Source: Mesorhizobium sp. NZP2077 (GTDB lineage: Bacteria > Pseudomonadota > Alphaproteobacteria > Rhizobiales > Rhizobiaceae). Taken from it: a stretch of DNA of 64,000 bases. Made by a program: the position numbers and the translations under genes. This document shows positions 12,766 to 24,970 of the stretch, one piece after another. The notes under the pieces were generated by a model. That model saw only the letters and a program-made list of their open reading frames with translations, did not search any database and was not told where the DNA came from. Location of the stretch: positions 1,680,001-1,744,000 of the forward strand of contig NZ_CP051293.1 of NCBI RefSeq assembly GCF_013170805.1, given 5' to 3'. Within the stretch, counting starts at the first letter, position 1; the number at the start of each line of letters is the position of its first letter.

Positions 12766-13842
12766 TCAGGCCGGGAACAGGAACGCCGAAGCGGGATCGA
12801 AAAAGATACGCTGACCTGATGCGATGGTGCTATCCGCCCCCTCTGCGTCAGAGGTTGGCCTGATGTCGATCTCATCGCCACCGGCCGTGCGCGCCACGAT
12901 GCGCCGGCGGTCACCGAAGAAGGCGGTGTCGATGATCTCGACGGCGAGTGCCGCGCTTGTCGGCCCGGGTGTGAGGCGGAAGGCTTCCGGGCGCACCATC
13001 AGCCGGACCTTCTGGCCTTGGCCGAAGGACGTTGTCGTCTTGACGCCGGTCACGATCGAGCCGTCAGTCAGGCGGATCGTCGATGTCTCACCCGCGGTAT
13101 GCAAATGCTCGGCCGGCAGGAAATTCGAGTTGCCGATGAAGCCGGCGACGAACTCGCTCGCCGGCCTGAGGTAAAGATCCTCACCGGTGCCGATCTGTTC
13201 GATGCGGCCTTCCCTGAACAGGGCGATGCGATCCGAAAGATGCAGCGCCTCCTCCTGGTCATGCGTGACATAGAGGATGGTGACACCGGTCTCGCGGTGG
13301 ATGCGGCGGATCTCGGTCTGGATTTCCTGGCGCAGCTTCTTGTCGAGTGCCGACAGCGGCTCGTCCATCAAGAGGATCGGCGGGTCGTAGGCGAGCGCGC
13401 GGGCAAGCGCCACGCGCTGTTGCTGCCCGCCAGACAGCGCGCCCGGATGGCGATCGGCGAAATTTTCGAGGCGCACCAGCGCCAGCATGTCGGCGACCTT
13501 GCGCTTGATCTCGCCATCGGGCCGGCGGCGCACGCGCAGCGGAAAGGCGACATTCTCGGCGACGCTCAGATGCGGGAACAGCGTGTAGCGCTGGAAAACC
13601 ATGCCGATGTTGCGCTTGTGCGACGGCACCGAAAGCAGCGACCTGTCCTCCAGGAGCACATCGCCTGAGCTCGGATCCTGGAAACCGGCAATGGCGTAGA
13701 GCGTGGTCGACTTGCCGGAGCCCGACGGGCCGAGGAACGTCAGGAACTCACCCTTGGGCACATCGATGGTGACGTTGTGGACGGCGACGAAGGCGCCGAA
13801 CGTCTTTCTTACCGCGCGTATGGACAGGAACGGTCGTGTCAT
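12766..13842 (-). CDS. ABC transporter ATP-binding protein (PotA-like)
   Basis: 358 aa. Walker A GPSGSGKST at residues 38-46, Q-loop VFQRYTLFPH, signature LSGGQQQR, Walker B ILLMDEP, H-loop VTHDQEE and a C-terminal TOBE region. All catalytic motifs are intact. The ATG at 13842 overlaps the stop of the upstream permease by four bases, which rules out a longer upstream extension. Energises import together with the two permeases and binding protein upstream; last gene of the eight-gene operon. Spermidine/putrescine-type by family, true substrate unknown. Confidence 0.9.
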   Translation of the reverse strand: MTRPFLSIRAVRKTFGAFVAVHNVTIDVPKGEFLTFLGPSGSGKSTTLYAIAGFQDPSSGDVLLEDRSLLSVPSHKRNIGMVFQRYTLFPHLSVAENVAFPLRVRRRPDGEIKRKVADMLALVRLENFADRHPGALSGGQQQRVALARALAYDPPILLMDEPLSALDKKLRQEIQTEIRRIHRETGVTILYVTHDQEEALHLSDRIALFREGRIEQIGTGEDLYLRPASEFVAGFIGNSNFLPAEHLHTAGETSTIRLTDGSIVTGVKTTTSFGQGQKVRLMVRPEAFRLTPGPTSAALAVEIIDTAFFGDRRRIVARTAGGDEIDIRPTSDAEGADSTIASGQRIFFDPASAFLFPA

Positions 13843-14639
13843 CGGGACAATTTTCTGCGAAGGAGTGCGGTCACGATCATCAGGCACAAGGTCAGGCCGA
13901 CAAGCAGGCTGGAGGCGGCGGCGACGACTGGGCTGAGGTCGGCGCGCAGGCTGCCCCAGATCTTCACCGGCAAGGTCTGCAAGGTCGGGCTCGCCATGAA
14001 GATCGCCACCACGACCTCGTCCCATGAAGCCAGAAAGGAGAAGATCGCCGCCGAGAAGATGCCGATCCTGATCGACGGCAAGGTGATCCTCAGCCGTGCC
14101 TGCAGCGGGCTGGCGCCGCAGACGATGGCCGCGTCCTCGATGGATTTGTCGAAACCCTCGAGCGCCGCGGTGATCGGGATGATCGCGAAAGGCAGCGCCA
14201 GGATGGTATGCGCGATGACGAAGCCGACCGTGGTGCCGGCGAGGCCAATGCGCAGGAAGAAGGCGTAGATGGCGATGGCGAACACTACGACTGGCAGCAC
14301 CATCGGCGTCAATAGCAGTCCGCGCAGAACCTGGCGTCCGCGAAACTCGCCCCTGACCAGGCTGAAGGAGGCGAACAGACCGATAATGACGGCGAGGATT
14401 GCGGCCATGGCGGCAATCCTGGCGCTGGTCAGCGCTGCATCGATCCAGCTCGGGTCGGCCAGCAGCTGCTGGTACCATTTCAGCGTCCAGCCGGGCGGCG
14501 GGAAGGCCAGCCAGCGCGACGAGCCGAATGACAGGAGCACGATGAAGACCACCGGCAGCAACAGGAAAGCCGCGACTGCCGCTGTGAAGCCGACAAGCGC
14601 CACGCGCAGCCATCCGAGCCTGTCGTAGTCGAGCAGCAT
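13839..14639 (-). CDS. ABC transporter permease (PotC-like)
   Basis: 266 aa with about six membrane segments. The binding-protein-dependent permease loop is recognisable at ALEGFDKSIEDAAIVCGASPLQA (the EAA-type motif that contacts the ATPase). The start at ATG 14639 is one base after the upstream permease stop. Forms the inner-membrane channel with the next permease. The operon also contains monooxygenase and aldehyde dehydrogenase genes, so the transported compound is probably their substrate or precursor. Confidence 0.88.
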   Translation of the reverse strand: MLLDYDRLGWLRVALVGFTAAVAAFLLLPVVFIVLLSFGSSRWLAFPPPGWTLKWYQQLLADPSWIDAALTSARIAAMAAILAVIIGLFASFSLVRGEFRGRQVLRGLLLTPMVLPVVVFAIAIYAFFLRIGLAGTTVGFVIAHTILALPFAIIPITAALEGFDKSIEDAAIVCGASPLQARLRITLPSIRIGIFSAAIFSFLASWDEVVVAIFMASPTLQTLPVKIWGSLRADLSPVVAAASSLLVGLTLCLMIVTALLRRKLSR

Positions 14640-14640
14640 G

Positions 14641-15501
14641 TCAGAGCCCTCCGCCGGCGCGCCTGGCGCCGACCAGGCGAAGCTGGATCGCGTAGAGCGC
14701 CATGGTGACGACGAGCAGGACGAAGGCGGCCGCACTGCCGAGTCCCCAGTTGAGCAGCGACTGCACCGTCTGGGCGATCATCTCGGCCAGCATCATGTTC
14801 GATGTGCCGCCGAGCAGCGCAGGCGTGACGAAGTAGCCAAGCGACATGACGAAGACCATCAGGCCGCCGGCGGCGATGCCGGGAAGCGACAGCGGCAGGA
14901 GGATGCGGCGGAAGGCCTCGAACGGGCTTGCACCGCAAAGGGCGGCCGCGCGCAGCGTCATCGGGTCGATCGCGCGCAGCGTGCCGACCAGTGGCAGGAT
15001 CATGAAGGGCAGCATGATGTAGACCATGCCGATGGTGACGCCGGCCAGATTGTTGATGAGCGGCAGCGGCTCGTGGATGATACCCAGGCCCATCAGTGCC
15101 CTGTTGATCACCCCCGTGCGCTGCAGCAGCACCATCCACGCATAGGTGCGGGTGAGAAGGTTCGTCCACATCGACAGGATGATGATGCCGAAGACGATCG
15201 AGCCGAAGGCGGGCGGCATGATCGCCAGCATCCAGGCGACGGGATAGGCCACCAGGATGGTGACGGCGGTGACGACCGATGCGACCAGGAAGGTGTTGAG
15301 GAACACCCGCACATAGGTGCCGCTGCCGAACAGCGTCGCGTAATTCTGCAAGCCCGGTTCGGGATCGGTGACGCTGCGCAGCAGCAGGGCGACCACCGGC
15401 ACGATGAAGAACAGGCCGACCAGGAGCAGGGCCGGGAAGGCGCTGCCGCTGCCGGCCGGCAGGCCGGCAACCGAGCTGCGTCTAAAGGAACTTCCCTGCA
15501 T
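14641..15501 (-). CDS. ABC transporter permease (PotB-like)
   Basis: 286 aa, about six membrane segments (for example ALLLVGLFFIVPVVALLL), with the EAA loop AAALCGASPFEAFRRILLPL. Start ATG 15501. A strong hairpin separates it from the binding-protein gene. Partner of the following permease; belongs to the PotB/spermidine-type class of two-permease importers. Confidence 0.88.
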   Translation of the reverse strand: MQGSSFRRSSVAGLPAGSGSAFPALLLVGLFFIVPVVALLLRSVTDPEPGLQNYATLFGSGTYVRVFLNTFLVASVVTAVTILVAYPVAWMLAIMPPAFGSIVFGIIILSMWTNLLTRTYAWMVLLQRTGVINRALMGLGIIHEPLPLINNLAGVTIGMVYIMLPFMILPLVGTLRAIDPMTLRAAALCGASPFEAFRRILLPLSLPGIAAGGLMVFVMSLGYFVTPALLGGTSNMMLAEMIAQTVQSLLNWGLGSAAAFVLLVVTMALYAIQLRLVGARRAGGGL

Positions 15502-15520
15502 CGAGCGGTCCTGTCTCGAA

Positions 15521-15545
15521 ACGGGGCGCGCAAGCCGCGCCCCGT
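15521..15545 (-). terminator. Intercistronic hairpin after a binding-protein gene
   Basis: Perfect 10-bp stem ACGGGGCGCG/CGCGCCCCGT with a five-base loop, without a U tract, in the 59-bp gap between binding protein and first permease. More likely an RNA-stabilising or processing hairpin that raises binding-protein expression than a full terminator. Confidence 0.75.
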
Positions 15546-15560
15546 CGGTCTGCAACGGTG

Positions 15561-16565
15561 TTACTTGGTCTGCCAGGCATACCAGCGCGTGGCGATCTCG
15601 TCGCGATGCTCGGCCCAGTAGTTCATGTCGAGGTTGATCTGGCCCTCGACATGGGCATCTGGCAGGGCCTTGACGGCATCGGCCGGCATCTCCGCCTTGG
15701 CCTTGGTATTGATCGGCGCATAGCCGCTTGCCTCGGCGAATTTCGCCTGGCCGGTTGGGCTGGTGGCGGCAGCGAGGAACTTCATCGCGCTGTCCTTGTT
15801 CTTGGCGCCCTTCGGCACGATGAGCACGTCGGCTGCGGTGAGGTTCTGGTTCCAGGCGACGCCGACATCGGTGCCATCCTGCTGGAGGGCGAAGACGCGA
15901 CCGTTCCACAGCTGGCCGAAGGCGGCCTCGCCGGAGGCGATCAACTGCTGCGACTCGGCACCGCCGCCCCACCAGACGATATCGGATTTGATGGTGTCGA
16001 GTTTCTTGAAGGCACGGTCGAGATCGAGCGGATAGAGCTTGTCCGCCGGCACGCCGTCGGCCAGCAGCGCGATTTCGATGACGCCCGGCGCCGACCATTT
16101 GTAGAAGGTCCGCTTGCCGGGAAACTTCTGGGTGTCGAACATGTCGGCCCAGCCGGTCGGTTCGCCAGTGACTGTGCCCTTGTTCCAGGCGAGCACGAAG
16201 GAATAGTAGAAGCTGCCGACAGCATGCTCATTGCTGAAGCGCGGGTCGAGATCGGCCTTGGGCACAACCGCATAGTCGATCGGCTCCAGCAGCCCGTCCT
16301 TGGCGGCCTTTATGGCGAAATCCATCTCCACGTCAACGACATCCCAGGTGACATTGCCGGCATCGACCATGGCCTTGAGCTTGCCGTAGTCGGTCGGTCC
16401 GTCCTGCAGCACCTTGATGCCGGAGCTGGCTTCGAAGGGGGCCGCCCAGGATTTGGTCTGTGCCTCCTGCGTGGTGCCGCCCCAACTGGTGAACGCCATC
16501 TCGTCGGCCTTGGCGGCGGTTGCGGCTAGCAGTCCGGCCAGCAGGCCGGTCAAAATCAGTTTCAT
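15561..16565 (-). CDS. Extracellular solute-binding protein, family 1 (PotD-like)
   Basis: 334 aa with a Sec signal peptide (KLILTGLLAGLLAATAAKA, cleavage after about residue 20). The mature part begins DEMAFTSWGG and has the WDVVDVEM and AFGQLWNGR segments of PotD-type periplasmic proteins. AGAGGAG lies upstream of the ATG. Captures the substrate for the PotABC-like importer encoded downstream. Family members bind polyamines, but also other small cations and organic acids, so the ligand stays open. Confidence 0.88.
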   Translation of the reverse strand: MKLILTGLLAGLLAATAAKADEMAFTSWGGTTQEAQTKSWAAPFEASSGIKVLQDGPTDYGKLKAMVDAGNVTWDVVDVEMDFAIKAAKDGLLEPIDYAVVPKADLDPRFSNEHAVGSFYYSFVLAWNKGTVTGEPTGWADMFDTQKFPGKRTFYKWSAPGVIEIALLADGVPADKLYPLDLDRAFKKLDTIKSDIVWWGGGAESQQLIASGEAAFGQLWNGRVFALQQDGTDVGVAWNQNLTAADVLIVPKGAKNKDSAMKFLAAATSPTGQAKFAEASGYAPINTKAKAEMPADAVKALPDAHVEGQINLDMNYWAEHRDEIATRWYAWQTK

Positions 16566-16624
16566 GTCATTCTCCTCTGTTGGTCTGTTCTTGTTTTTCT
16601 CCGTGCACCTGCGTCCTGCGGTTC

Positions 16625-18094
16625 TCAGCGCATGACGAAGGGATCGGGGATCGGCTCGTCCGAGGTGTTGATCCAGACGGATTTCGAGCGCGTATAGTCT
16701 CTGATGGCATCGAGCCCGCCTTCGCGGCCGAGGCCCGACAGGCCGTAGCCGCCGAAGGGAACGAGCGGCGATACGGCGCGATAGGTGTTGACCCAGACGA
16801 CGCCGGCATGGATGTCGCGCGCCATGCGGTGCGCCTTGCCAAGATTGCTGGTGAACACGCCGGAAGCCAGGCCGAAGGGCGTGTCGTTGGCGAGCGCCAG
16901 CGCCTGCGCCTCGGTGTCGAAGGCGAGCACGCTGAGCACCGGACCGAACAATTCCTCGCGTACGCAGAGCAGGTCGCTGCCGCCGGCGTCGATGATGGTC
17001 GGTGCGTAGTAGAAGCCGTCACCGGCTGGCCGTGTTCCGCCAGTGATGAGCGTGCCGCCCCGGGCGAGGCTTTCCGCGACAACCTTCTCGATCCAGTCGC
17101 GCTGGCGCAGCGTGGCGAGCGGACCCATTTCGGTCGCCGGATCCTGGGGATCGCCGATGCGGATAGCCTCGGCCTTGCTCTTCAGGCGGGCGAGGAATTC
17201 ATCCTTCACCGAACGCTCGACCAGCAGCCGCGAGCCGGCGACGCAGCTCTGGCCGGTCGCGGCGAAAATACCGGCGACGACCGCGTTGGCAGCGCTGTCG
17301 AGGTCGGCGTCGGCAAAGACGACGACCGGGCTTTTGCCGCCGAGTTCCAGCGTGGTGTAGGCAAGGTTCTCCGCCGTGTTCCTGACGATGGCGCGCGCCG
17401 TCGATGGGCCGCCTGTGAAGGCGACGCGCGAAACCAGCGTATGGCTGGTCAGGCGCCGGCCGCACTCATGGCCGAAGCCGGTGAGGATGTTGACGACGCC
17501 TGGGGGAAAGCCAGCCTCATGAACCAGTTCGGCAAAGGCGAGCAGCGGCGCCGGGCCGTCCTCTGAGGCCTTGAGCACGATGGTGCAGCCGGCGGCAAGC
17601 GCCGGGCCGAGCTTGACGGCCGAGAGGAAGAGCTGCGAATTCCAAGGCACCACCGCGGCTACGACGCCGATCGGTTCGCGGCGGATGGTGACGTCGAGAT
17701 CCGGCTTGTCGATCGGCACGTGCGCGCCTTCGTGCTTGTCGGCAAGCCCGCCATAATAGCGATAGTAGTCGCCGACATAGGCGATCTGGGCGCGGGTCTC
17801 GCGGATGATCTTGCCGGTGTCGCGTGTCTCGAGCTCGGCCAGGCGTGCGGCATTGGCGGCGACGAGGTCGCCGAGCTTGACCAGCAGCTTTCCGCGCGCC
17901 GTCGCGGTCATCCTTCGCCATGGGCCGGAACGCAGAGCGCGGTGCGCCGCCTCGACGGCGTGGTCGACATCGGTCTCGCTTGCCGCCGGCATCTTCGCCC
18001 AGGCCGCGCCGGTCGACGGGTCGACACTGTCGAACGTGGCGGATGGCTCGTCGAAGCGGCCGTCGATGAAGTTCCTAAAAAAAGCGTCGGTCAT
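16625..18094 (-). CDS. Aldehyde dehydrogenase, NAD(P)-dependent
   Basis: 489 aa, normal family length. Catalytic set present: Asn152 in PWNSQ, Glu250 in ELGGKSP, Cys284 in GQSCVAGSR. The cofactor region ILTGFGHECG and the C-terminal bridging segment EGGLDAIRDYTRSKSVW are present. Oxidises an aldehyde to the acid. It lies 10 bp after the LLM monooxygenase and 59 bp before the binding protein, so it probably handles an aldehyde formed by the monooxygenase/hydrolase step in the same pathway. Confidence 0.93.
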   Translation of the reverse strand: MTDAFFRNFIDGRFDEPSATFDSVDPSTGAAWAKMPAASETDVDHAVEAAHRALRSGPWRRMTATARGKLLVKLGDLVAANAARLAELETRDTGKIIRETRAQIAYVGDYYRYYGGLADKHEGAHVPIDKPDLDVTIRREPIGVVAAVVPWNSQLFLSAVKLGPALAAGCTIVLKASEDGPAPLLAFAELVHEAGFPPGVVNILTGFGHECGRRLTSHTLVSRVAFTGGPSTARAIVRNTAENLAYTTLELGGKSPVVVFADADLDSAANAVVAGIFAATGQSCVAGSRLLVERSVKDEFLARLKSKAEAIRIGDPQDPATEMGPLATLRQRDWIEKVVAESLARGGTLITGGTRPAGDGFYYAPTIIDAGGSDLLCVREELFGPVLSVLAFDTEAQALALANDTPFGLASGVFTSNLGKAHRMARDIHAGVVWVNTYRAVSPLVPFGGYGLSGLGREGGLDAIRDYTRSKSVWINTSDEPIPDPFVMR

Positions 18095-18104
18095 GGGCTC
18101 GCGA

Positions 18105-19142
18105 TCAGAGGAAGGCCGGCATCACCCGGTCGATGAATAGTTGCAGCGATTTTTTCTTGCGCTCGTGCGAAAGCCCGCTGTCGATCCAGATCGAATACTG
18201 GTCGTAGCCGAGCGCCTCATAGGCCTTCAGCCGGGCGATGACCTCATCGGCCTCGCCGATCACCAGGTTCTGTCGGATCTTGTCGGGCGCGTATTGCGGC
18301 ATGGCCGCGATCTCGTCCGGCGTCAGCGGTTCCAATATGCCTTGATGCACCGGCTTTTTGTTCTGGAACCAGGCGCCGAACTGGCAGTAGAAAGTCGACA
18401 GTTCCTGCGTGAGGCGATCGGCGTCGGCCGCGTCTTCGGCAACGAAGGTGTGCATCAAAAGCATGATTTCCGGCCGTTCGATCTCAGGATGCGCGGCGCA
18501 GGCGGTGTTGAAGCGCTGCATCAGGCTCGTCACCTCGTCATCGCCTGATGCCAGCGGCGTCACCTGGACCTTGCAGCCATTGGCGACGGCGAAATCGTGC
18601 GAGTTCGGGTCGCGAGCCGCCACCCAGATCGGCGGGTAGGGTTTCTGCACCGGCTTGGGCGAGGAAGTAGTGGTAGGAAATTGCCAGAACTCGCCGGAGA
18701 GTTCGAAGTCGCCGTCCCAGAGGCCGCGGATCGCCGGTATGATCTCGCGCATGCGCTGGCCAGCCCCCCAGGCGTCGAGGCCGGGAAAGATGCGCTGATA
18801 CTCATATGTGTAGGCGCCGCGCGCGATGCCGATGTCGAGCCGGCCGCCGCTGATGACGTCGGCCATCGCCGCTTCGCCGGCAAGCTTGATCGGATGCCAG
18901 AAGGGCGCGATCAGGGTTCCGGTGCCGAGGCGGATGCGGGTGCTTTTGGCGGCGAGATAAGCGATGTTGATGAAAGGGTTGGGCGAGATGGTGAATTCCA
19001 TGCCGTGATGCTCGCCGATCCAGGCGGTCTCAAACCCTGCCTGTTCGGCCATGAGGACCAGTTCCTCGAGCTCGGTCACAAGCTCGGAATGCGGCTTGGT
19101 CAAGTCCGAGCGTTCCATGTGCACGAAGAGCGAGAATTTCAT
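18105..19142 (-). CDS. LLM class flavin-dependent monooxygenase
   Basis: 345 aa bacterial-luciferase-like TIM barrel. Typical features: AWIGEHHGMEF near residue 41, RIRLGTGTLIAPFWHP, GRLDIGIARG and PIWVAARDPNSHDFA. Such enzymes use reduced FMN from a separate reductase to oxidise a substrate. A flavin reductase domain is encoded immediately upstream in a gene overlapping by four bases, so the two make a two-component system. RutA (pyrimidine ring opening) is one relative with similar partners; the substrate here is not known. Confidence 0.9.
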   Translation of the reverse strand: MKFSLFVHMERSDLTKPHSELVTELEELVLMAEQAGFETAWIGEHHGMEFTISPNPFINIAYLAAKSTRIRLGTGTLIAPFWHPIKLAGEAAMADVISGGRLDIGIARGAYTYEYQRIFPGLDAWGAGQRMREIIPAIRGLWDGDFELSGEFWQFPTTTSSPKPVQKPYPPIWVAARDPNSHDFAVANGCKVQVTPLASGDDEVTSLMQRFNTACAAHPEIERPEIMLLMHTFVAEDAADADRLTQELSTFYCQFGAWFQNKKPVHQGILEPLTPDEIAAMPQYAPDKIRQNLVIGEADEVIARLKAYEALGYDQYSIWIDSGLSHERKKKSLQLFIDRVMPAFL

Positions 19143-20938
19143 CCGTGGTCACCTGTATTGACGGTGGAAGCGCTGGGTCTGGCGAGCGGCCGGACCTCGC
19201 CTTCGACATCGTTGCCGACATAGACGCCGAATGCATCCACCGAGCATTCCCTGACATAGCGCTCGAGCATCGAGCGGATCGCCGGATCGGCGATCTTCAA
19301 TCCTTCGATCGCGTCGATCTCGATGAGCCGGATGCCGCGATCGCTGGAAGCGGGCACATCGAATGTGCCGCGATAGCAGACATGCGTGCGCGAAACAGGT
19401 CCTGCGTCGTCCCAGACGGCGAACAGGAAGCCGAGCTGAGCCTCGATGGCCTTCTTCGCAAGCAGTCCTCGCAGACTATTGCCATCGCCTGCCGAGCCCA
19501 ACCCTCGGCCGCGCGGCAGTTCGAAACCGTCCGCCGTTTCCAGGAACAGGATCCGGCCGCCATTTTCGAGGATGGCGCCGACATCGGTGCCGGGCTGGGT
19601 GGCGGCCAGCGCATCCTGGCTGAGGCCGGGTGCGACATAGGCGCCGCGGCAATAGCCGAGCGGCTGCGCGGAGTTGTGCTCGAAATCGCGGACGCGGCCG
19701 ATGAGGATCGAATGATCGCCGGCCTCGACCAGCCGCTCCATGTCGCAGTCGAAGGACGCGACGGAGCCGTCCAGCACGGGGCTGCCGGTCTGGCCGGGGT
19801 GCCAGGTTACCGAGGCGAATTTGTCGGCCGCTTTCGAGGCGAAGACGCCGGACGCTGCCTTTTGACCCTCGTTGAGGACGTTGATGGCGAAGCTCTTCGA
19901 GGTCGCGAAGACGGGATGGCCTGATGCCTTGTGGGCGATGCAGACCAGCACCAGTGGCGGATCGAGCGACACAGAGGTGAAGGAATTGGCGGTGAAGCCG
20001 CGCGGCTCGCCTTCGGGTCCGATCGTCGTGACGATAGTAACGCCGGTGAGGAAGGAGCCAAGCGCACGGCGGAACTCGCCGCTGTCGAACCCGGGATTCG
20101 TCTTCGCAGAGCCGTCTTGTTCGGCCGCTTCGTCCTCTGCGAGGAAGTCAACAATGTGGCGCGTGGTGAGGTCAGGTGCCGCGACCGCCATCATGTGCTT
20201 CTCGCCCGGCAGCACCGTGCAGCGGCCCTGCGGCGCCAGGCGTGCCATCGCGGCCGACATTGCCGGCGAAGAGTTCCTGTCCTCGGAGCCGGTCATGAAC
20301 AGCGCCGGCACGGCCAGCGTCGGCAGGCGGTCGGCATGATCGCCGTCGGCACGAGCGAACAGGCGGTAGGTGCGAGCATAGCCTTCCGGGTCGATCGCGC
20401 TCAGTGCGGATGCTGTCTTCTGGGCAGCCGTTTCCAGCTGGGCCGGCACCGGATCTCCGAACCAGCGGGCGATGGTCTGTGCCGTGCCGGCCGTATCGCT
20501 GCGGCCGTTGAGCGCCACCGCGCGCTGGCGAACGGCTTCGGCCAGTTCAGGTGGACGCCGGAACACGGCATTCAGGGAAACGATGCGGCGGACGCGCTCC
20601 GGCGCGCGCAGCGCGAGTTCCTGGGCAACGAGCGCACCCATCGAGTGGCCGATGACGGATACCTTGTCGAGGCCGAGATGGTCGAGCAGGCGAAGGGCCT
20701 GGTCGGCGTAGTCGGCCAGTTCCGGGTGCTGCGGCGGCAGCGGCGAAAGGCCGTGGCCGAGCATGTCGATGGCGATCACGTCAAAGCCACCGGCCATGCG
20801 CTCGATCTGCGGCTGCCAGATCGCTGCGTTCATGCCGACGCCATGGATGAACAGCACCGGCGTGCCCGATCCAGCGCGGATGAAGCCGGTGCCGTCGGGA
20901 GCGGTGCCCTGTCGAGCCCATGCGGAAGCGTCAGCCAT
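19139..20938 (-). CDS. Fusion protein: alpha/beta hydrolase + flavin reductase + C-terminal domain
   Basis: 599 aa from ATG 20938. Residues about 1-270 are an alpha/beta hydrolase: oxyanion-region HGVGMN, nucleophile GHSMG (Ser99), later acid in GSEDR and histidine in GEKHMM. Residues about 295-450 are a flavin reductase-like FMN-binding domain (FLTGVTIVTTIGPEG, GFTANSFTSVSLDPPLVLVC, GDHSILIGRV). The last ~150 residues (AILENGGRILFLETADGFELPRG and onward) loosely resemble a Nudix-type fold, but I see no Nudix box. It overlaps both neighbours. The fusion would couple reduced flavin supply to hydrolysis of the product. Confidence 0.87.
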   Translation of the reverse strand: MADASAWARQGTAPDGTGFIRAGSGTPVLFIHGVGMNAAIWQPQIERMAGGFDVIAIDMLGHGLSPLPPQHPELADYADQALRLLDHLGLDKVSVIGHSMGALVAQELALRAPERVRRIVSLNAVFRRPPELAEAVRQRAVALNGRSDTAGTAQTIARWFGDPVPAQLETAAQKTASALSAIDPEGYARTYRLFARADGDHADRLPTLAVPALFMTGSEDRNSSPAMSAAMARLAPQGRCTVLPGEKHMMAVAAPDLTTRHIVDFLAEDEAAEQDGSAKTNPGFDSGEFRRALGSFLTGVTIVTTIGPEGEPRGFTANSFTSVSLDPPLVLVCIAHKASGHPVFATSKSFAINVLNEGQKAASGVFASKAADKFASVTWHPGQTGSPVLDGSVASFDCDMERLVEAGDHSILIGRVRDFEHNSAQPLGYCRGAYVAPGLSQDALAATQPGTDVGAILENGGRILFLETADGFELPRGRGLGSAGDGNSLRGLLAKKAIEAQLGFLFAVWDDAGPVSRTHVCYRGTFDVPASSDRGIRLIEIDAIEGLKIADPAIRSMLERYVRECSVDAFGVYVGNDVEGEVRPLARPSASTVNTGDHG

Positions 20939-21518
20939 GCACGTCCCCAAGCTCCTTGAGGTCCTGATAGCGATCGCCGATGCGGTGATGCGGGCGACCG
21001 CCGATCGACGCGCCAAGGGCGACCACCAGTTCGTCCGGCGCCGGCGCATCGCCGATCTGAAAATGCACGGTGAGGTAATGCGAGCGCCGTCCTTCGTCAT
21101 TCTTGTCCATCAGCGGGATCATGATCGGCGTGTTCGGCCCGCCGCGCAGGTTGGTGAAGGCAAGATAGGTCTTGGCGCCGACGGCGCGGCGATAATGATT
21201 GCCGAAATGCAGCGTGTGGATCAGCGCCGAGGCATGCTCGATCTCGCCTGACGTGCCGCAAATCGCCGCCTTGCCATAGCCCTCGATCGCCTCGCCGGAA
21301 CCGGCGATGGCAATGATCTCGCGGGTCAGGATCTCTCCCAGCACCGGCGCGCAGGCGCGGATTTCGGGCGACAGATCGTCGGTGAAGCCGCGACCGGCCC
21401 AGGGATTGGTCAGCACTGCGGCGACGCCGATCAGGCGCAGAGGGCTGGAGGCGACCTTGCCGCCTTCGATCAGCGTGTTCTCGGTATAGGTCACGATCTT
21501 GCGGATGGCAGGCTGCAT
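20931..21518 (-). CDS. AA_synth family protein (formerly DUF1185)
   Basis: 195 aa matching the amino-acid-synthesis family PF06684: N-terminal IRKIVTYTENTLIEGGK, AVLTNPWAGRGFTDDLSP, GYGKAAICGTSGEIEHASA and HLTVH-type C-terminal strands. Structures of the family show a chorismate-mutase-like fold; the reaction is unknown. First gene of the eight-gene operon, overlapping the hydrolase-reductase by eight bases. Its place ahead of a monooxygenase system suggests a catabolic rather than biosynthetic job here. Confidence 0.85.
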   Translation of the reverse strand: MQPAIRKIVTYTENTLIEGGKVASSPLRLIGVAAVLTNPWAGRGFTDDLSPEIRACAPVLGEILTREIIAIAGSGEAIEGYGKAAICGTSGEIEHASALIHTLHFGNHYRRAVGAKTYLAFTNLRGGPNTPIMIPLMDKNDEGRRSHYLTVHFQIGDAPAPDELVVALGASIGGRPHHRIGDRYQDLKELGDVHG

Positions 21519-21570
21519 GAAATCCTCGGGTCGGCGATGCCGCGGGATCGTCTGATCCCTGTATCATCTT

Positions 21571-21582
21571 ATGGTATACCAT
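21571..21582. promoter_or_regulatory. Perfect palindrome, probable GntR operator
   Basis: ATGGTATACCAT, a 12-bp perfect palindrome matching the GntR/FadR-type half-site pattern (TGGT and ACCA). It lies 52 bp upstream of the AA_synth start and 74 bp upstream of the divergent GntR start, so one site could repress both. Confidence 0.65.
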
Positions 21583-21656
21583 GCTATGGAGCGCCAAGTA
21601 CCTTGTCAACCGGGCATGGAATCTGTTTTGTGGCGGTGCAGGAGCCAACACAACAC

Positions 21657-22331
21657 ATGCCAGACGACACGCTTCGCATCGACCGCAGCGCCAAGACCTT
21701 GAGGACGCTGGCGCTGGAACGCATGCGCGACGCGATCATGGATTTCCACTTCCAGCCCGGCGAAAGGCTGGTCGAGCGGCCACTTTGCGACCAGCTTGGC
21801 GTCAGCCGTTCCGTCGTGCGCGAGGTTCTGCGGCAGCTGGAGGCCGAGGGGCTCGTGCAGATGATCCCTGGGCATGGGCCGGCCGTAGCCAGGCCGGACC
21901 TCGGGCGCACCGACGAGATCTATGAGCTCAGGGCGCTGCTCGAAGGCATTGCGGCACGCGCCTGCGCCCTGTCGGCCACCGGCGAGCAACTGGCGACGCT
22001 CGAACGCGCGCTGGCGGATCTGTTCGAGGCATGGGCATCGGGGACGCCGCCGGCGGTGATGCGGGCGACGACGAAATTCTACGAGGCACTGTTCGAGGCC
22101 GCCGACAAGCGCGTCGCCTGGGAAATCGTCAGCGGGCTGAATGTCCGCATCAACCAGCTTCGTTCGATGACCATCGTCTCGACCAACCGGCGCGAAGCGG
22201 CGATCGCCGAGATGAACGAGATCATGGATGCGATCCGCGCACGCAAGCCGGAAGAGGCGGAAGCCGCGGCGCGGCGCCATGTCGAATCCGCCTGGCAGAT
22301 CGCCCGCACGGCGCTGCGACCGCCGGCATGA
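21657..22331 (+). CDS. GntR family regulator (FadR/FCD subfamily)
   Basis: 224 aa from ATG 21657, with GGAG at 21641-21644. N-terminal winged helix (about 15-75: RERLVERPLCDQLGVSRS-type segment and VREVLRQLEAEGLV), then the all-helical FCD effector domain (YELRALLEGIAARACAL, YEALFEAADKR, HVESAWQIAR). FCD regulators usually respond to a carboxylic acid. It diverges from the monooxygenase operon with a perfect palindrome between, and is the evident regulator of that operon. An upstream in-frame ATG at 21537 lies across the operator and is unlikely. Confidence 0.9.
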   Translation: MPDDTLRIDRSAKTLRTLALERMRDAIMDFHFQPGERLVERPLCDQLGVSRSVVREVLRQLEAEGLVQMIPGHGPAVARPDLGRTDEIYELRALLEGIAARACALSATGEQLATLERALADLFEAWASGTPPAVMRATTKFYEALFEAADKRVAWEIVSGLNVRINQLRSMTIVSTNRREAAIAEMNEIMDAIRARKPEEAEAAARRHVESAWQIARTALRPPA

Positions 22332-22337
22332 AGCCGC

Positions 22338-23771
22338 TTATGCACGGTCGGCCATCACCGTTCGCAGCCAGGCTGTGATGGCATCGAAGTCGATCGGCTT
22401 TGTCGTGTCGACGTCGAAGAGCGGTCCGCGCCGCAGCGGCTCGGCGCGCTTGGCGAGCTCGATCAGTTCGGGAATATAGGCAGCACCGGGATGTCCGGCG
22501 GGACGTTGGTCGAGCCTAGCGCCGTAGCGCTCGGCAAGCACTTCGCCGGGCGCGTGGCACCAGATTTCGACGGTCTGCTCGACGCCAGCCTTTCGCAGAT
22601 GATCTTCGAGAACCTCACGCGGCTGGAAGCCAAACCAGGCGTCGACGACCACGGTGGTGCCGGCGGGAGCCTCGCCGACCACTGACCAGATCGCCTGGTA
22701 GCTGGCGCGGCCGAGCGTGCGGTTGAACAGGCGGTCGCCGCCGCCGAGCATTTCGAGGAACGGGTTCTTGATCGTGTCGAGCGCCAGCAACGGCCATCCC
22801 ATGCGGTCGGCGATACCGCGCGAGACGGTGCTCTTGCCGCTGGCGGGAATGCCGTTGACGAGCACCGCGCGACGAGCGCGATTGTACTTGGCCGATGGCT
22901 CCGCCAGCGCCTGCAGACCAGCGCCGATCACGCCGGCGTCGTCACCGAGCTGGGCGGGTTCGACGTGGCATTGATACCAGGGCGCCAGCGCCGGCGCGCG
23001 GGCGAGGGCCGCATGTGCCGCCCGGCCAAGGCCGCCGCCAAGCAGCACCAAATCGGGAGCAAGCACGGCAACGGCGGTGTCGATGGCGGCGCGTAGCGGC
23101 CTCGCCCAGGCGTCCAGTATGCCGCGTGCGTGGAAGTCACCGGCCGCATCGCGGGCAAAGAGCTGATCGACCGAAATGTCGGCGCCGAGCCCGGCGCGGG
23201 CAATGTGGCGGCCGAGCGCCGTGCCCGAACTGGTGGTTTCGACGCAGCCGCGGCGACCGCAGGCGCAAACCTCGCCATTGACGTCGACGGTAATGTGGCC
23301 GAGCTGGCCCGCCGTTGCCGAGCCGCGCGTGATCCGCCGATCTTGAGCGACAGCGCCGCCGATGCCGGTGCCGATGGTGAACATGACGATATTGCCATGG
23401 CCACGCCCGGCGCCGAGCGCCATTTCGGCGGCCAGCGCCATGTTGCAGTCATTGTCGATGACGACGGGTTTGCCTGTCATGTCTTCCAGGCGCTGCCCAA
23501 GCGCAACCGAGGCGAGGTTGACGTAGCCGCCAGACAGGACCGCGCCGCGCCGCGCATCGACGCGGCCGGGAACGCCGACGCCGATGGTCTTCACCTCGGG
23601 CGTGTCGAGAAGGCGCACCATGTCGGCGATGAGGCCGAGCACCAGCTCCGGGTCGGGCGCGCTTTTTTCGGAAACGCGCTTGAGGATTTCGCCGGTCTCG
23701 GAGATGCGGGCGGCACGCAGATTGGTGCCGCCAATATCGATTCCTATGCTGAGAGGCATGGCGTCCTGCAT
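22338..23771 (-). CDS. Fusion: ROK family sugar kinase + P-loop kinase domain
   Basis: 477 aa. Residues 1-290 are a ROK kinase: phosphate motif GIDIGGTN (10-17), catalytic DND (Asp108), zinc signature with His159 and CACGRRGC (169-176). Residues about 300-475 are a second nucleotide-binding domain with Walker A GIPASGKST (307-315) and DTIKNPFLE, like the AAA_33/zeta-toxin-like small-molecule kinases. ROK proteins are usually about 300 aa, so this is a true fusion. Upstream lies a LacD/YihT-like aldolase gene. Two kinase activities on one sugar would fit a bisphosphate made for aldol cleavage. Confidence 0.85.
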   Translation of the reverse strand: MQDAMPLSIGIDIGGTNLRAARISETGEILKRVSEKSAPDPELVLGLIADMVRLLDTPEVKTIGVGVPGRVDARRGAVLSGGYVNLASVALGQRLEDMTGKPVVIDNDCNMALAAEMALGAGRGHGNIVMFTIGTGIGGAVAQDRRITRGSATAGQLGHITVDVNGEVCACGRRGCVETTSSGTALGRHIARAGLGADISVDQLFARDAAGDFHARGILDAWARPLRAAIDTAVAVLAPDLVLLGGGLGRAAHAALARAPALAPWYQCHVEPAQLGDDAGVIGAGLQALAEPSAKYNRARRAVLVNGIPASGKSTVSRGIADRMGWPLLALDTIKNPFLEMLGGGDRLFNRTLGRASYQAIWSVVGEAPAGTTVVVDAWFGFQPREVLEDHLRKAGVEQTVEIWCHAPGEVLAERYGARLDQRPAGHPGAAYIPELIELAKRAEPLRRGPLFDVDTTKPIDFDAITAWLRTVMADRA

Positions 23772-23844
23772 TTGTTTTCACGCAATTCCGGACGCAAAAC
23801 CGCTTCACACTTTGGCTGGAATAGCTCTGATCCAAATTCGACTA

Positions 23845-24753
23845 TCAGGCAGCGGCTTTCTGCCGGTAGTGCCCGATCACGGCCTGGATCTCACGCAATC
23901 GCGGCACCGCAATGGTCTTAAGCCTTTCGCGCTGGATGTCACGGTCGAGCGAGATGCAATCCTTCCACAGCGAGCGGCCGGCGATGACGCCAGAGGCGCC
24001 ATTCTGCATGGCGATCTCGACCTGGCCGAGGAAGGTGGCGTGGTTGACGCCGGCCGAAAGCACCGCCCACGGCACGTCGCCGGCCATTTTGGTGATGTTG
24101 GCGCAGGCTTGCGGCGTTCCGGGGTAGGGGAGCTTCAGCACCTTGGCGCCGCATTCGAGCGAAATCCTGGTGCCTTCTTCGACAAGCCATGGCGTTTTGG
24201 CCGCATAGTCCTCGGGGCTTTCCCCATCGAGCTGATAGGTCAGGAATTCGACGACCAGCAGCAGGTCTTCCTGCCCGAAATCGGCGATGCATTGGCGCAG
24301 GATGGCGATGTTGTGCTCGTTGGCTTCAGGCTTGTCGGCCCTCAGATACACCATGATCTTGCCGCCGGTGCCGCCCAGCGCACGGACGCGGCGCGCGTCG
24401 ATGTCGGGAACCAGGCGTGACAGGCGGTAGCCCTCGGGCGTGACGTCGAAACCCGAAGCGTCGAGGCCGATGAGCAGCGCCGTGTCGCGGTTCAAGACGC
24501 CCTCGTCGACAATGCGCGGCACTGCGCAGAGCGGGTCGAGCAGCACGCAGGACGCGGCACTGGCGAGGTAGCGCGTGATGTCAGCCTTGGTGTCGCCGAG
24601 CATGTCGTTGGTGATCTTGGCCTGTTCGGCCGGGTCCGATGCCAGCAAGGTCCGCATGCCGCCGCGCTGGTCGCAGGCAATAGCCACCATGGCCCCATCC
24701 TTGCCGCATATCTGCTGGTAGCCGCGCAGTTCCGCGGTGGTCATCTTCGTCAT
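23845..24753 (-). CDS. Class I aldolase of the LacD/YihT family
   Basis: 302 aa TIM barrel similar to tagatose 1,6-bisphosphate aldolase and sulfofructose-phosphate aldolase. Features: VAIACDQRGGMRTLL, LLDPLCAVP, IMVYLRAD, VVEFLTY, and the Schiff-base lysine expected at Lys207 in KVLKLPYPG. C-terminal phosphate-site segment GASGVIAGRSLW. Start ATG 24753; Met4 is an alternative. It is transcribed with the ROK kinase fusion downstream and opposite a SorC regulator. It would split a phosphorylated ketose into two C3 units. Confidence 0.88.
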   Translation of the reverse strand: MTKMTTAELRGYQQICGKDGAMVAIACDQRGGMRTLLASDPAEQAKITNDMLGDTKADITRYLASAASCVLLDPLCAVPRIVDEGVLNRDTALLIGLDASGFDVTPEGYRLSRLVPDIDARRVRALGGTGGKIMVYLRADKPEANEHNIAILRQCIADFGQEDLLLVVEFLTYQLDGESPEDYAAKTPWLVEEGTRISLECGAKVLKLPYPGTPQACANITKMAGDVPWAVLSAGVNHATFLGQVEIAMQNGASGVIAGRSLWKDCISLDRDIQRERLKTIAVPRLREIQAVIGHYRQKAAA

Positions 24754-24970
24754 GGTCTCAATCCGATGTTGGCGCTCTCTTGCCGAGGGCGCGGATCCCG
24801 TGGAAACAAGAATATTCGGTTCTGCACGCCTTGCCGGCAGGCAGGGAGATTTTGCCGAGGTGTTGCACCATCCGCCCTCGCGAACAATGCCTCGCCAGCC
24901 TTGCGACCAGGGATCGGCCGCAAGTTGCGAGTTGGCTGGATTTGCGCGATAACTCCCGTCGGCGTATGCG

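Follow-up and report, generated by a model that had tools for sequence, protein, structure and literature searches.

The 64,000-nucleotide stretch of Mesorhizobium sp. NZP2077 DNA analyzed here (contig NZ_CP051293.1, positions 1,680,001 to 1,744,000; hereafter, the window) contains a block of eight minus-strand genes, all with open frames, which face a divergent plus-strand gene for a GntR/FCD regulator (window positions 12766 to 22331). The block encodes an AA_synth-family protein, a hydrolase-flavin reductase fusion, a luciferase-like flavin monooxygenase (LLM), an aldehyde dehydrogenase (ALDH), and an ABC importer. We propose that it is probably a tgn-type operon with a Gts-type importer, serving the uptake of trigonelline or a close pyridinium carboxylate and its oxidative opening to succinate semialdehyde. 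Trigonelline is N-methylnicotinate, a compound common in legumes.

On a plasmid of Acinetobacter sp. PK01, the genes run in the order of a GntR regulator, an AA_synth protein, and an alpha/beta hydrolase, then tgnA, tgnB, and tgnC, and last a cytosine permease, a hypothetical protein, and succinate-semialdehyde dehydrogenase (SSADH); the record names the tgnC product (Z)-2-((N-methylformamido)methylene)-5-hydroxybutyrolactone dehydrogenase. The window AA_synth protein is 64% identical to that of PK01, the LLM is 62% identical to the annotated tgnB product over 344 amino acids, and the ALDH is 65% identical to the annotated tgnC product over 485 amino acids. The hydrolase part of the fusion matches the PK01 hydrolase, whose gene carries no tgnD label, at 39% over 250 amino acids, and the reductase part matches the tgnA product at 37% over 304 amino acids, with the same domain layout, tail domain included. 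A passage of PMC8269262 gives ring opening by TgnA/TgnB as the first step of bacterial trigonelline degradation, and a passage of PMC7913881 reports that TgnF, a DUF1185-type homolog, stimulates TgnE-dependent oxidation of succinate semialdehyde in A. baylyi. Gene order, the identities to PK01, and these two passages together mark the core of the block as tgn type. The gene-for-gene relatedness to tgn indicates that the substrate is likely trigonelline or a close pyridinium carboxylate; for trigonelline itself we would put the chances moderately above even. An earlier note on this DNA had described a two-component flavin monooxygenase with hydrolase, ALDH, and importer, opening a nitrogen heterocycle, which was right in kind. 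Contrary to what that note had suggested, the system is not undescribed, since the content and order of the core match the tgn genes and the block with its importer equals that on pRL10 of R. johnstonii 3841; the view that the substrate is not deducible was too pessimistic in light of the relatedness to tgn.

The core genes are strongly co-conserved, more than chance would allow. One scan of genome contigs gave 582 loci. Among the best 80, AA_synth was present in 76, the hydrolase in 78, the flavin reductase in 76, the ALDH in 79, the binding protein in 74, and GntR in 76, and the complete five-enzyme core in 74. These loci are not independent, 57 of them (L006 to L062) forming one close, Mesorhizobium-type group, and two (L016 and L074) reach a contig end. 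The pattern extends to Azospirillum, Aquitalea, Pseudogulbenkiania, Ancylobacter, and Rhizobium. Two results count against strict linkage: the usual reductase was not found beside the LLM in Acidocella-type loci and two actinobacterial loci, and in one locus (L082) the LLM stands alone, the other core genes not being found there. Within the close group, all loci but L016, which is cut by its contig end, have hydrolase and reductase in a single frame (56 of 57); outside it, L069, L071, L074, and L083 do so (4 of 23). No NIPSNAP-family gene was detected among the 57 Mesorhizobium-type loci; many other loci carry one between ALDH and importer (e.g., L001, 14515 to 14838).

AA_synth proteins of the TgnF kind keep similar company. 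From 89 places listed in Alphaproteobacteria, 40 stretches were picked by hand and scored with a TgnF-centered profile. TgnF-like loci (more than 280 bits; 11 of the 40) had an LLM nearby in 7 cases and a related hydrolase in 9, compared with 1 and 2, respectively, of the remaining 29. This suggests that the family, named for amino acid synthesis, holds a subfamily that travels with ring-opening oxygenases. The link to LLM is not exclusive, since the NZP2077 genome carries, in a different cluster, a further AA_synth gene of another kind beside two distant LLM genes (L091, G000:C1:594000-612500). A role of the AA_synth protein earlier than TgnE is hinted at by its doubling together with LLM and ALDH in Caballeronia arvi and its retention in the window with no SSADH gene nearby.

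The importer, too, keeps to the neighborhood of the core. Of 398 Pseudomonadota genomes, 9 have the binding protein and 22 have the LLM (in two of these, only 42 to 44% alike); binding protein and LLM lie within 8 kb of each other in all 9 genomes having the binding protein, and 13 of the 22 LLM-bearing genomes have no Gts binding protein. In other records, the core is accompanied by an NCS1-like permease, in some with no Gts importer in view and in some adjoining one. In Paraburkholderia sprentiae, the Gts importer beside the core is joined by an MFS transporter. Three loci from one family have a binding protein of the Gts kind together with an NCS1-like permease, an LLM (52 to 55% alike), and one to three operator-like palindromes; AA_synth and hydrolase were seen in only one of the three (18-kb stretch). 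The co-occurrence of binding protein and LLM and the loci combining a Gts importer with the core place the importer with the tgn-type pathway.

Upstream of the AA_synth gene lies the palindrome ATGGTATACCAT, a candidate operator, at which the GntR/FCD protein would, by analogy, act as a repressor. Of 89 sequences, the window's among them, 84 hold the GTATAC core of the palindrome in the 220 bp preceding AA_synth; for pieces of 220 bp drawn at random from these loci, the count is 65 of 4450. Promoter-like matches such as the one touching the palindrome were no commoner than in shuffles (1 found, 1.0 expected).

Several observations weigh against the tgn assignment or its details. Identity to the PK01 hydrolase and reductase is only 39 and 37%, and the tgnB label of the PK01 record looks like automatic annotation. 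Besides the ALDH gene, no SSADH gene was found in the window, nor was a NIPSNAP gene; outside the window, the same genome encodes a protein matching the SSADH of R. johnstonii at 76%. The GTATAC core was not found upstream in 5 of the 89 sequences, S. meliloti among them, and two of the three NCS1-like loci have an LLM only 52 to 53% alike, AA_synth and hydrolase not being found there in 18 kb. The pocket of the binding protein is that solved with gamma-aminobutyric acid (GABA), the reported ligand of Atu4243. The window LLM falls outside a well-supported subclade (99/100) of Acinetobacter, Burkholderia, Rhizobium, and S. meliloti enzymes, so that the exact substrate is inferred. Finally, in C. 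arvi an AA_synth-LLM-ALDH set of the tgnB subclade faces a set of the window kind, which could mean two substrates.

The last two points favor the most probable of the alternatives, namely, that the Mesorhizobium group performs the same chemistry on a neighboring substrate instead of trigonelline, such as a pyridine carboxylate that is unmethylated or placed differently, or else a cyclic mimic of GABA. We consider this unlikely, though well worth weighing. It also gains from sarcosine-oxidase-type genes, a plausible means of N-methyl disposal, which stand beside four clusters nearer tgnB (L003, L004, L081, and L102), none being found in the window; against this, weaker matches occur in four Mesorhizobium-type loci (L020, L035, L039, and L040), near the locus ends. 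Identities are at least 71% beside three rhizobial clusters nearer tgnB, 35 to 42% beside PK01, and 37 to 53% in four window-kind loci, and it is possible that such genes near tgn-type operons are a sink for the N-methyl group.

The LLM sequences themselves separate the two groups very little. In a tree of 34 rows chosen from the fetched loci, the group uniting the window LLM and tgnB has 100/100 support against relatives of 40 to 42%. A comparison of 14 subclade rows with 18 others, including two Acidocella rows placed nearer the subclade, gave only 4 columns that separate the groups at at least 90% conservation in each (V29, E33, I42, and Q315 in the window); the groups share 94 invariant columns. 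The pocket of the binding protein is identical in both groups, and the operator-like site is common to them. Mixed loci pair hydrolase and reductase of the window kind with an LLM of the other kind: in Caballeronia Lep1P3 and P. sprentiae, a full tgn core stands beside window-type hydrolase, reductase, and Gts importer, and a second LLM, ALDH of the same type, and AA_synth were not found in the stretches searched. We read such mixtures, that of C. arvi included, as a sign of shared intermediates, but the same picture would arise if two substrates fed a single lower pathway.

Two further arguments for equal function of the LLM groups were set aside. Mutual exclusion, seen in that the same 21 of 297 genomes have one copy each, is no proof, since at this frequency chance alone would produce next to no overlap. 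A survey of the genus gave a match in 83 of 146 genomes, of which 80 have copies at 86 to 100% (two of these with two copies), one has a partial 95% piece, and two have a 64% copy only; that both kinds occur together in 0 of 146 is too weak an argument. Related clusters with an LLM at 40 to 42% and a different arrangement of AA_synth, hydrolase, and ALDH genes were seen on A. fabrum pAt (L099) and a Parasedimentitalea plasmid (L100).

Improbable, in our judgment, is the alternative that the operon handles GABA or a precursor, with a GABA importer and enzymes opening a larger GABA-releasing compound. Such an opening was reportedly suggested by White et al. in 2009. The binding protein does match Atu4243 with 470 bits (structures 4eq7/4euo, E 2.9e-140) and the Pf622 GABA sensors 6dgv/9d57 with E about 1e-127; the identification of 4euo as Atu4243 is taken from a passage of PMC6829864. 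A passage of PMC12999171 gives the GABA site as W9, T13, F100, Y102, W202, R205, D228, and Y264, residue 102 having been Phe until it was mutated for the sensor. By manual mapping on the alignment, these positions correspond to W28, T32, F119, Y121, W220, R223, D246, and Y282 in the window protein, and all eight are identical in 81 of 81 collected binding proteins, the window's included. Atu4243 is described as highly GABA-specific, its gene being repressed by the atu4232 product, in PMC3907764, and according to a passage of PMC7449393, Gts transports GABA in R. leguminosarum, A. tumefaciens, and B. abortus (with less than 40% identity for the last). However, a ring-opening oxygenase is unnecessary for GABA, and the core matches tgn genes, is found in other records beside an NCS1-like permease where no Gts importer is visible, and accompanied the binding protein through its LLM without exception in the 398 genomes. 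The importer had been called PotABCD-like in the earlier note, which rightly saw an importer and undersold it; it belongs to the Gts/Atu4243 type, and its GABA-type pocket is conserved.

With its one Arg, one Asp, one Thr, and five aromatic side chains, this pocket would suit an N-methylpyridinium carboxylate. It is tempting to speculate, at somewhat less than even odds, that Gts/Atu4243/Pf622 proteins naturally bind the pyridinium betaines of trigonelline-type pathways and that GABA is a look-alike or second ligand. If so, the scaffold of the iGABASnFR sensor has another natural ligand.

Membership in the Rut (pyrimidine) pathway can be dismissed: LLM, flavin reductase, and alpha/beta hydrolase are present and RutA chains match at E about 1e-5, but the tgn genes are closer relatives, equivalents of RutB, RutC, and RutE are not among the Pfam assignments of the block, and the NCBI equivalog models score far below their cut-offs (RutF, 104.3 versus 254.75 bits; RutD, 86.9 versus 238.5 bits). 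The comparison with Rut made in the earlier note thus holds for the logic only. An F420 enzyme was likewise rejected for the LLM, the listed F420 models scoring below their cut-offs and a flavin reductase being encoded in the same operon.

The step-by-step chemistry of the tgn pathway in Acinetobacter reportedly goes back to Perchat et al. 2018. For the tgn-type operon of the window, whose eight genes are presumably co-transcribed, a corresponding course can be proposed. The GtsABCD-like importer would take up a small zwitterion of the pyridinium carboxylate kind, trigonelline being the most likely. With reduced flavin mononucleotide (FMNH2) from the flavin reductase domain of the fusion and with O2, the TgnB-like LLM would cleave the ring. 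The TgnC-like ALDH would then oxidize the semialdehyde/hydroxylactone product, and the TgnD-like hydrolase domain would split the resulting N-formyl enamide on the way towards succinate semialdehyde, to be oxidized by an SSADH encoded elsewhere in the genome. The TgnF-like AA_synth protein may be a helper in late steps, and the GntR/FCD protein would repress from ATGGTATACCAT until substrate or product is present.

Features of the operon and its regulatory region (positions in the window)
Feature	Position	Strand	Basis
ABC ATPase, GtsD-like	12766..13842	-	Pfam ABC_tran
ABC permease, GtsC-like	13839..14639	-	Pfam BPD_transp_1
ABC permease, GtsB-like	14641..15501	-	Pfam BPD_transp_1; start from M. 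ciceri record
GtsA/Atu4243-type periplasmic binding protein	15561..16565	-	Pfam SBP_bac_8 6e-43; 4eq7/4euo and 6dgv/9d57 matches
ALDH, TgnC-like	16625..18094	-	Pfam Aldedh 2.2e-159; 65% to annotated tgnC
LLM flavin monooxygenase, TgnB-like	18105..19142	-	Pfam Bac_luciferase 3.6e-59; 62% to annotated tgnB; tree
Fusion of alpha/beta hydrolase (TgnD-like), flavin reductase (TgnA-like), and C-terminal Nudix-fold domain	19139..20938	-	Pfam Abhydrolase_1 2.9e-29, Flavin_Reduct 2.1e-43; single frame
AA_synth (PF06684/DUF1185) protein, TgnF-like	20931..21518	-	Pfam AA_synth 3.1e-67; 64% to PK01 AA_synth
ATGGTATACCAT palindrome, candidate operator	21571..21582		GTATAC core recurrent upstream of AA_synth
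Sigma-70-like promoter candidate TTGACA-17-TAGCAT	21581..21609	-	-10 touches palindrome; no better than chance alone
GntR/FCD regulator, GtsR-like	21660..22331	+	Pfam GntR 2.3e-16, FCD 2.5e-26; M. ciceri record

Frames and Pfam assignments bear out all the genes named in the earlier note, which had described eight tightly packed genes, some of them overlapping, with a divergent FCD-GntR regulator. The starts of the regulator, fusion, and first permease genes were refined against an M. ciceri record; a regulator start at 21537 lies too far upstream and was moved to 21660. The LLM of M. ciceri WSM1271 is 96% identical to the window enzyme. AA_synth and fusion genes overlap by 8 bases and fusion and LLM genes by 4. 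The layout, with GntR alongside and a GtsABCD-like importer downstream of the enzymes, is that of gts-type loci, and the regulator is 41 to 55% identical to those adjoining related operons outside the close group. The ALDH has ELGGK and GQSC motifs, and the hydrolase part of the fusion has GHSMG from hydrolase residue 99. The earlier note was right to see hydrolase and reductase in one frame and overlooked a C-terminal domain (19142 to 19624, minus strand) with a Nudix fold, in which no Nudix box was found by eye.

Beyond the regulator gene, a ROK-family domain fused to a P-loop kinase-like domain (AAA_33/CPT; 22338 to 23771, minus strand) is followed by a DeoC/LacD-type aldolase (23845 to 24888, minus strand); by appearance, these genes (22338 to 24888) form a separate sugar-kinase block. 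In a tgn-type region of A. baumannii, an IS982-family transposase gene was seen upstream of the SSADH gene (L094, 15443 to 16318).

Plasmid pRL10 of R. johnstonii 3841 carries the same core and importer block with NIPSNAP and SSADH genes added; we take this block to be the gts operon reportedly described by White et al. in 2009, a paper listed as reference 29 of PMC7449393. The same core and importer block is found on S. meliloti pSymA, where it ends 2.9 kb from nifB, and the trigonelline catabolism genes of S. meliloti are said to have been mapped on pSym near nif by Boivin et al. in 1990. The reductase of the pSymA operon itself matches PDB 3rh7 at E 1e-212. A passage of PMC7268258 counts SMa0799-803, under the name potABCD2 (putrescine uptake), with the transport genes that are essential for symbiosis. 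From their position after SMa0793, these genes (L005:15931-19709) seem to encode the Gts importer of this tgn-type operon, in which case the putrescine label may be wrong.

The hydrolase-reductase fusion, the conserved operator candidate ATGGTATACCAT, and the link between Gts and tgn are new here. For an operon with an importer previously described as transporting GABA, there is now a testable substrate; rhizobial gts loci are tied to a plant betaine, and two literatures, on gts/GABA import and on tgn/trigonelline, are joined. No paper joining the gts operon to trigonelline was found in open-licence PMC, a weak negative since most subscription papers lie outside its scope.

Among known systems, the Acinetobacter tgn cluster shares with the window the order AA_synth-hydrolase-TgnA-TgnB-TgnC and the divergent GntR gene. 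It has an NCS1-like permease, whereas the window has a Gts ABC importer, and the window differs further in its fused hydrolase and reductase, in its operon without SSADH, and in an LLM outside the subclade of the Acinetobacter enzyme. The block of R. leguminosarum 3841 has the order GntR, AA_synth, hydrolase, reductase, LLM, ALDH, binding protein, two permeases, and ATPase, as in the window, but with separate hydrolase and reductase genes, with NIPSNAP and SSADH, and with a non-divergent GntR gene, in each of which the window differs. The flavin reductase SMa0793 (PDB 3rh7), like the window fusion, joins a flavin reductase to a Nudix-fold C-terminal domain but lacks the hydrolase. The Rut pathway shares the logic of LLM, flavin reductase, and alpha/beta hydrolase, without RutB, RutC, and RutE equivalents in the window block and with RutF and RutD models far below cut-off. 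The GABA-binding proteins Atu4243 and Pf622 (PDB 4eq7, 4euo, 6dgv, and 9d57) are close relatives of the window binding protein, in which their eight contact positions are kept; unlike them, it sits in a ring-opening operon.

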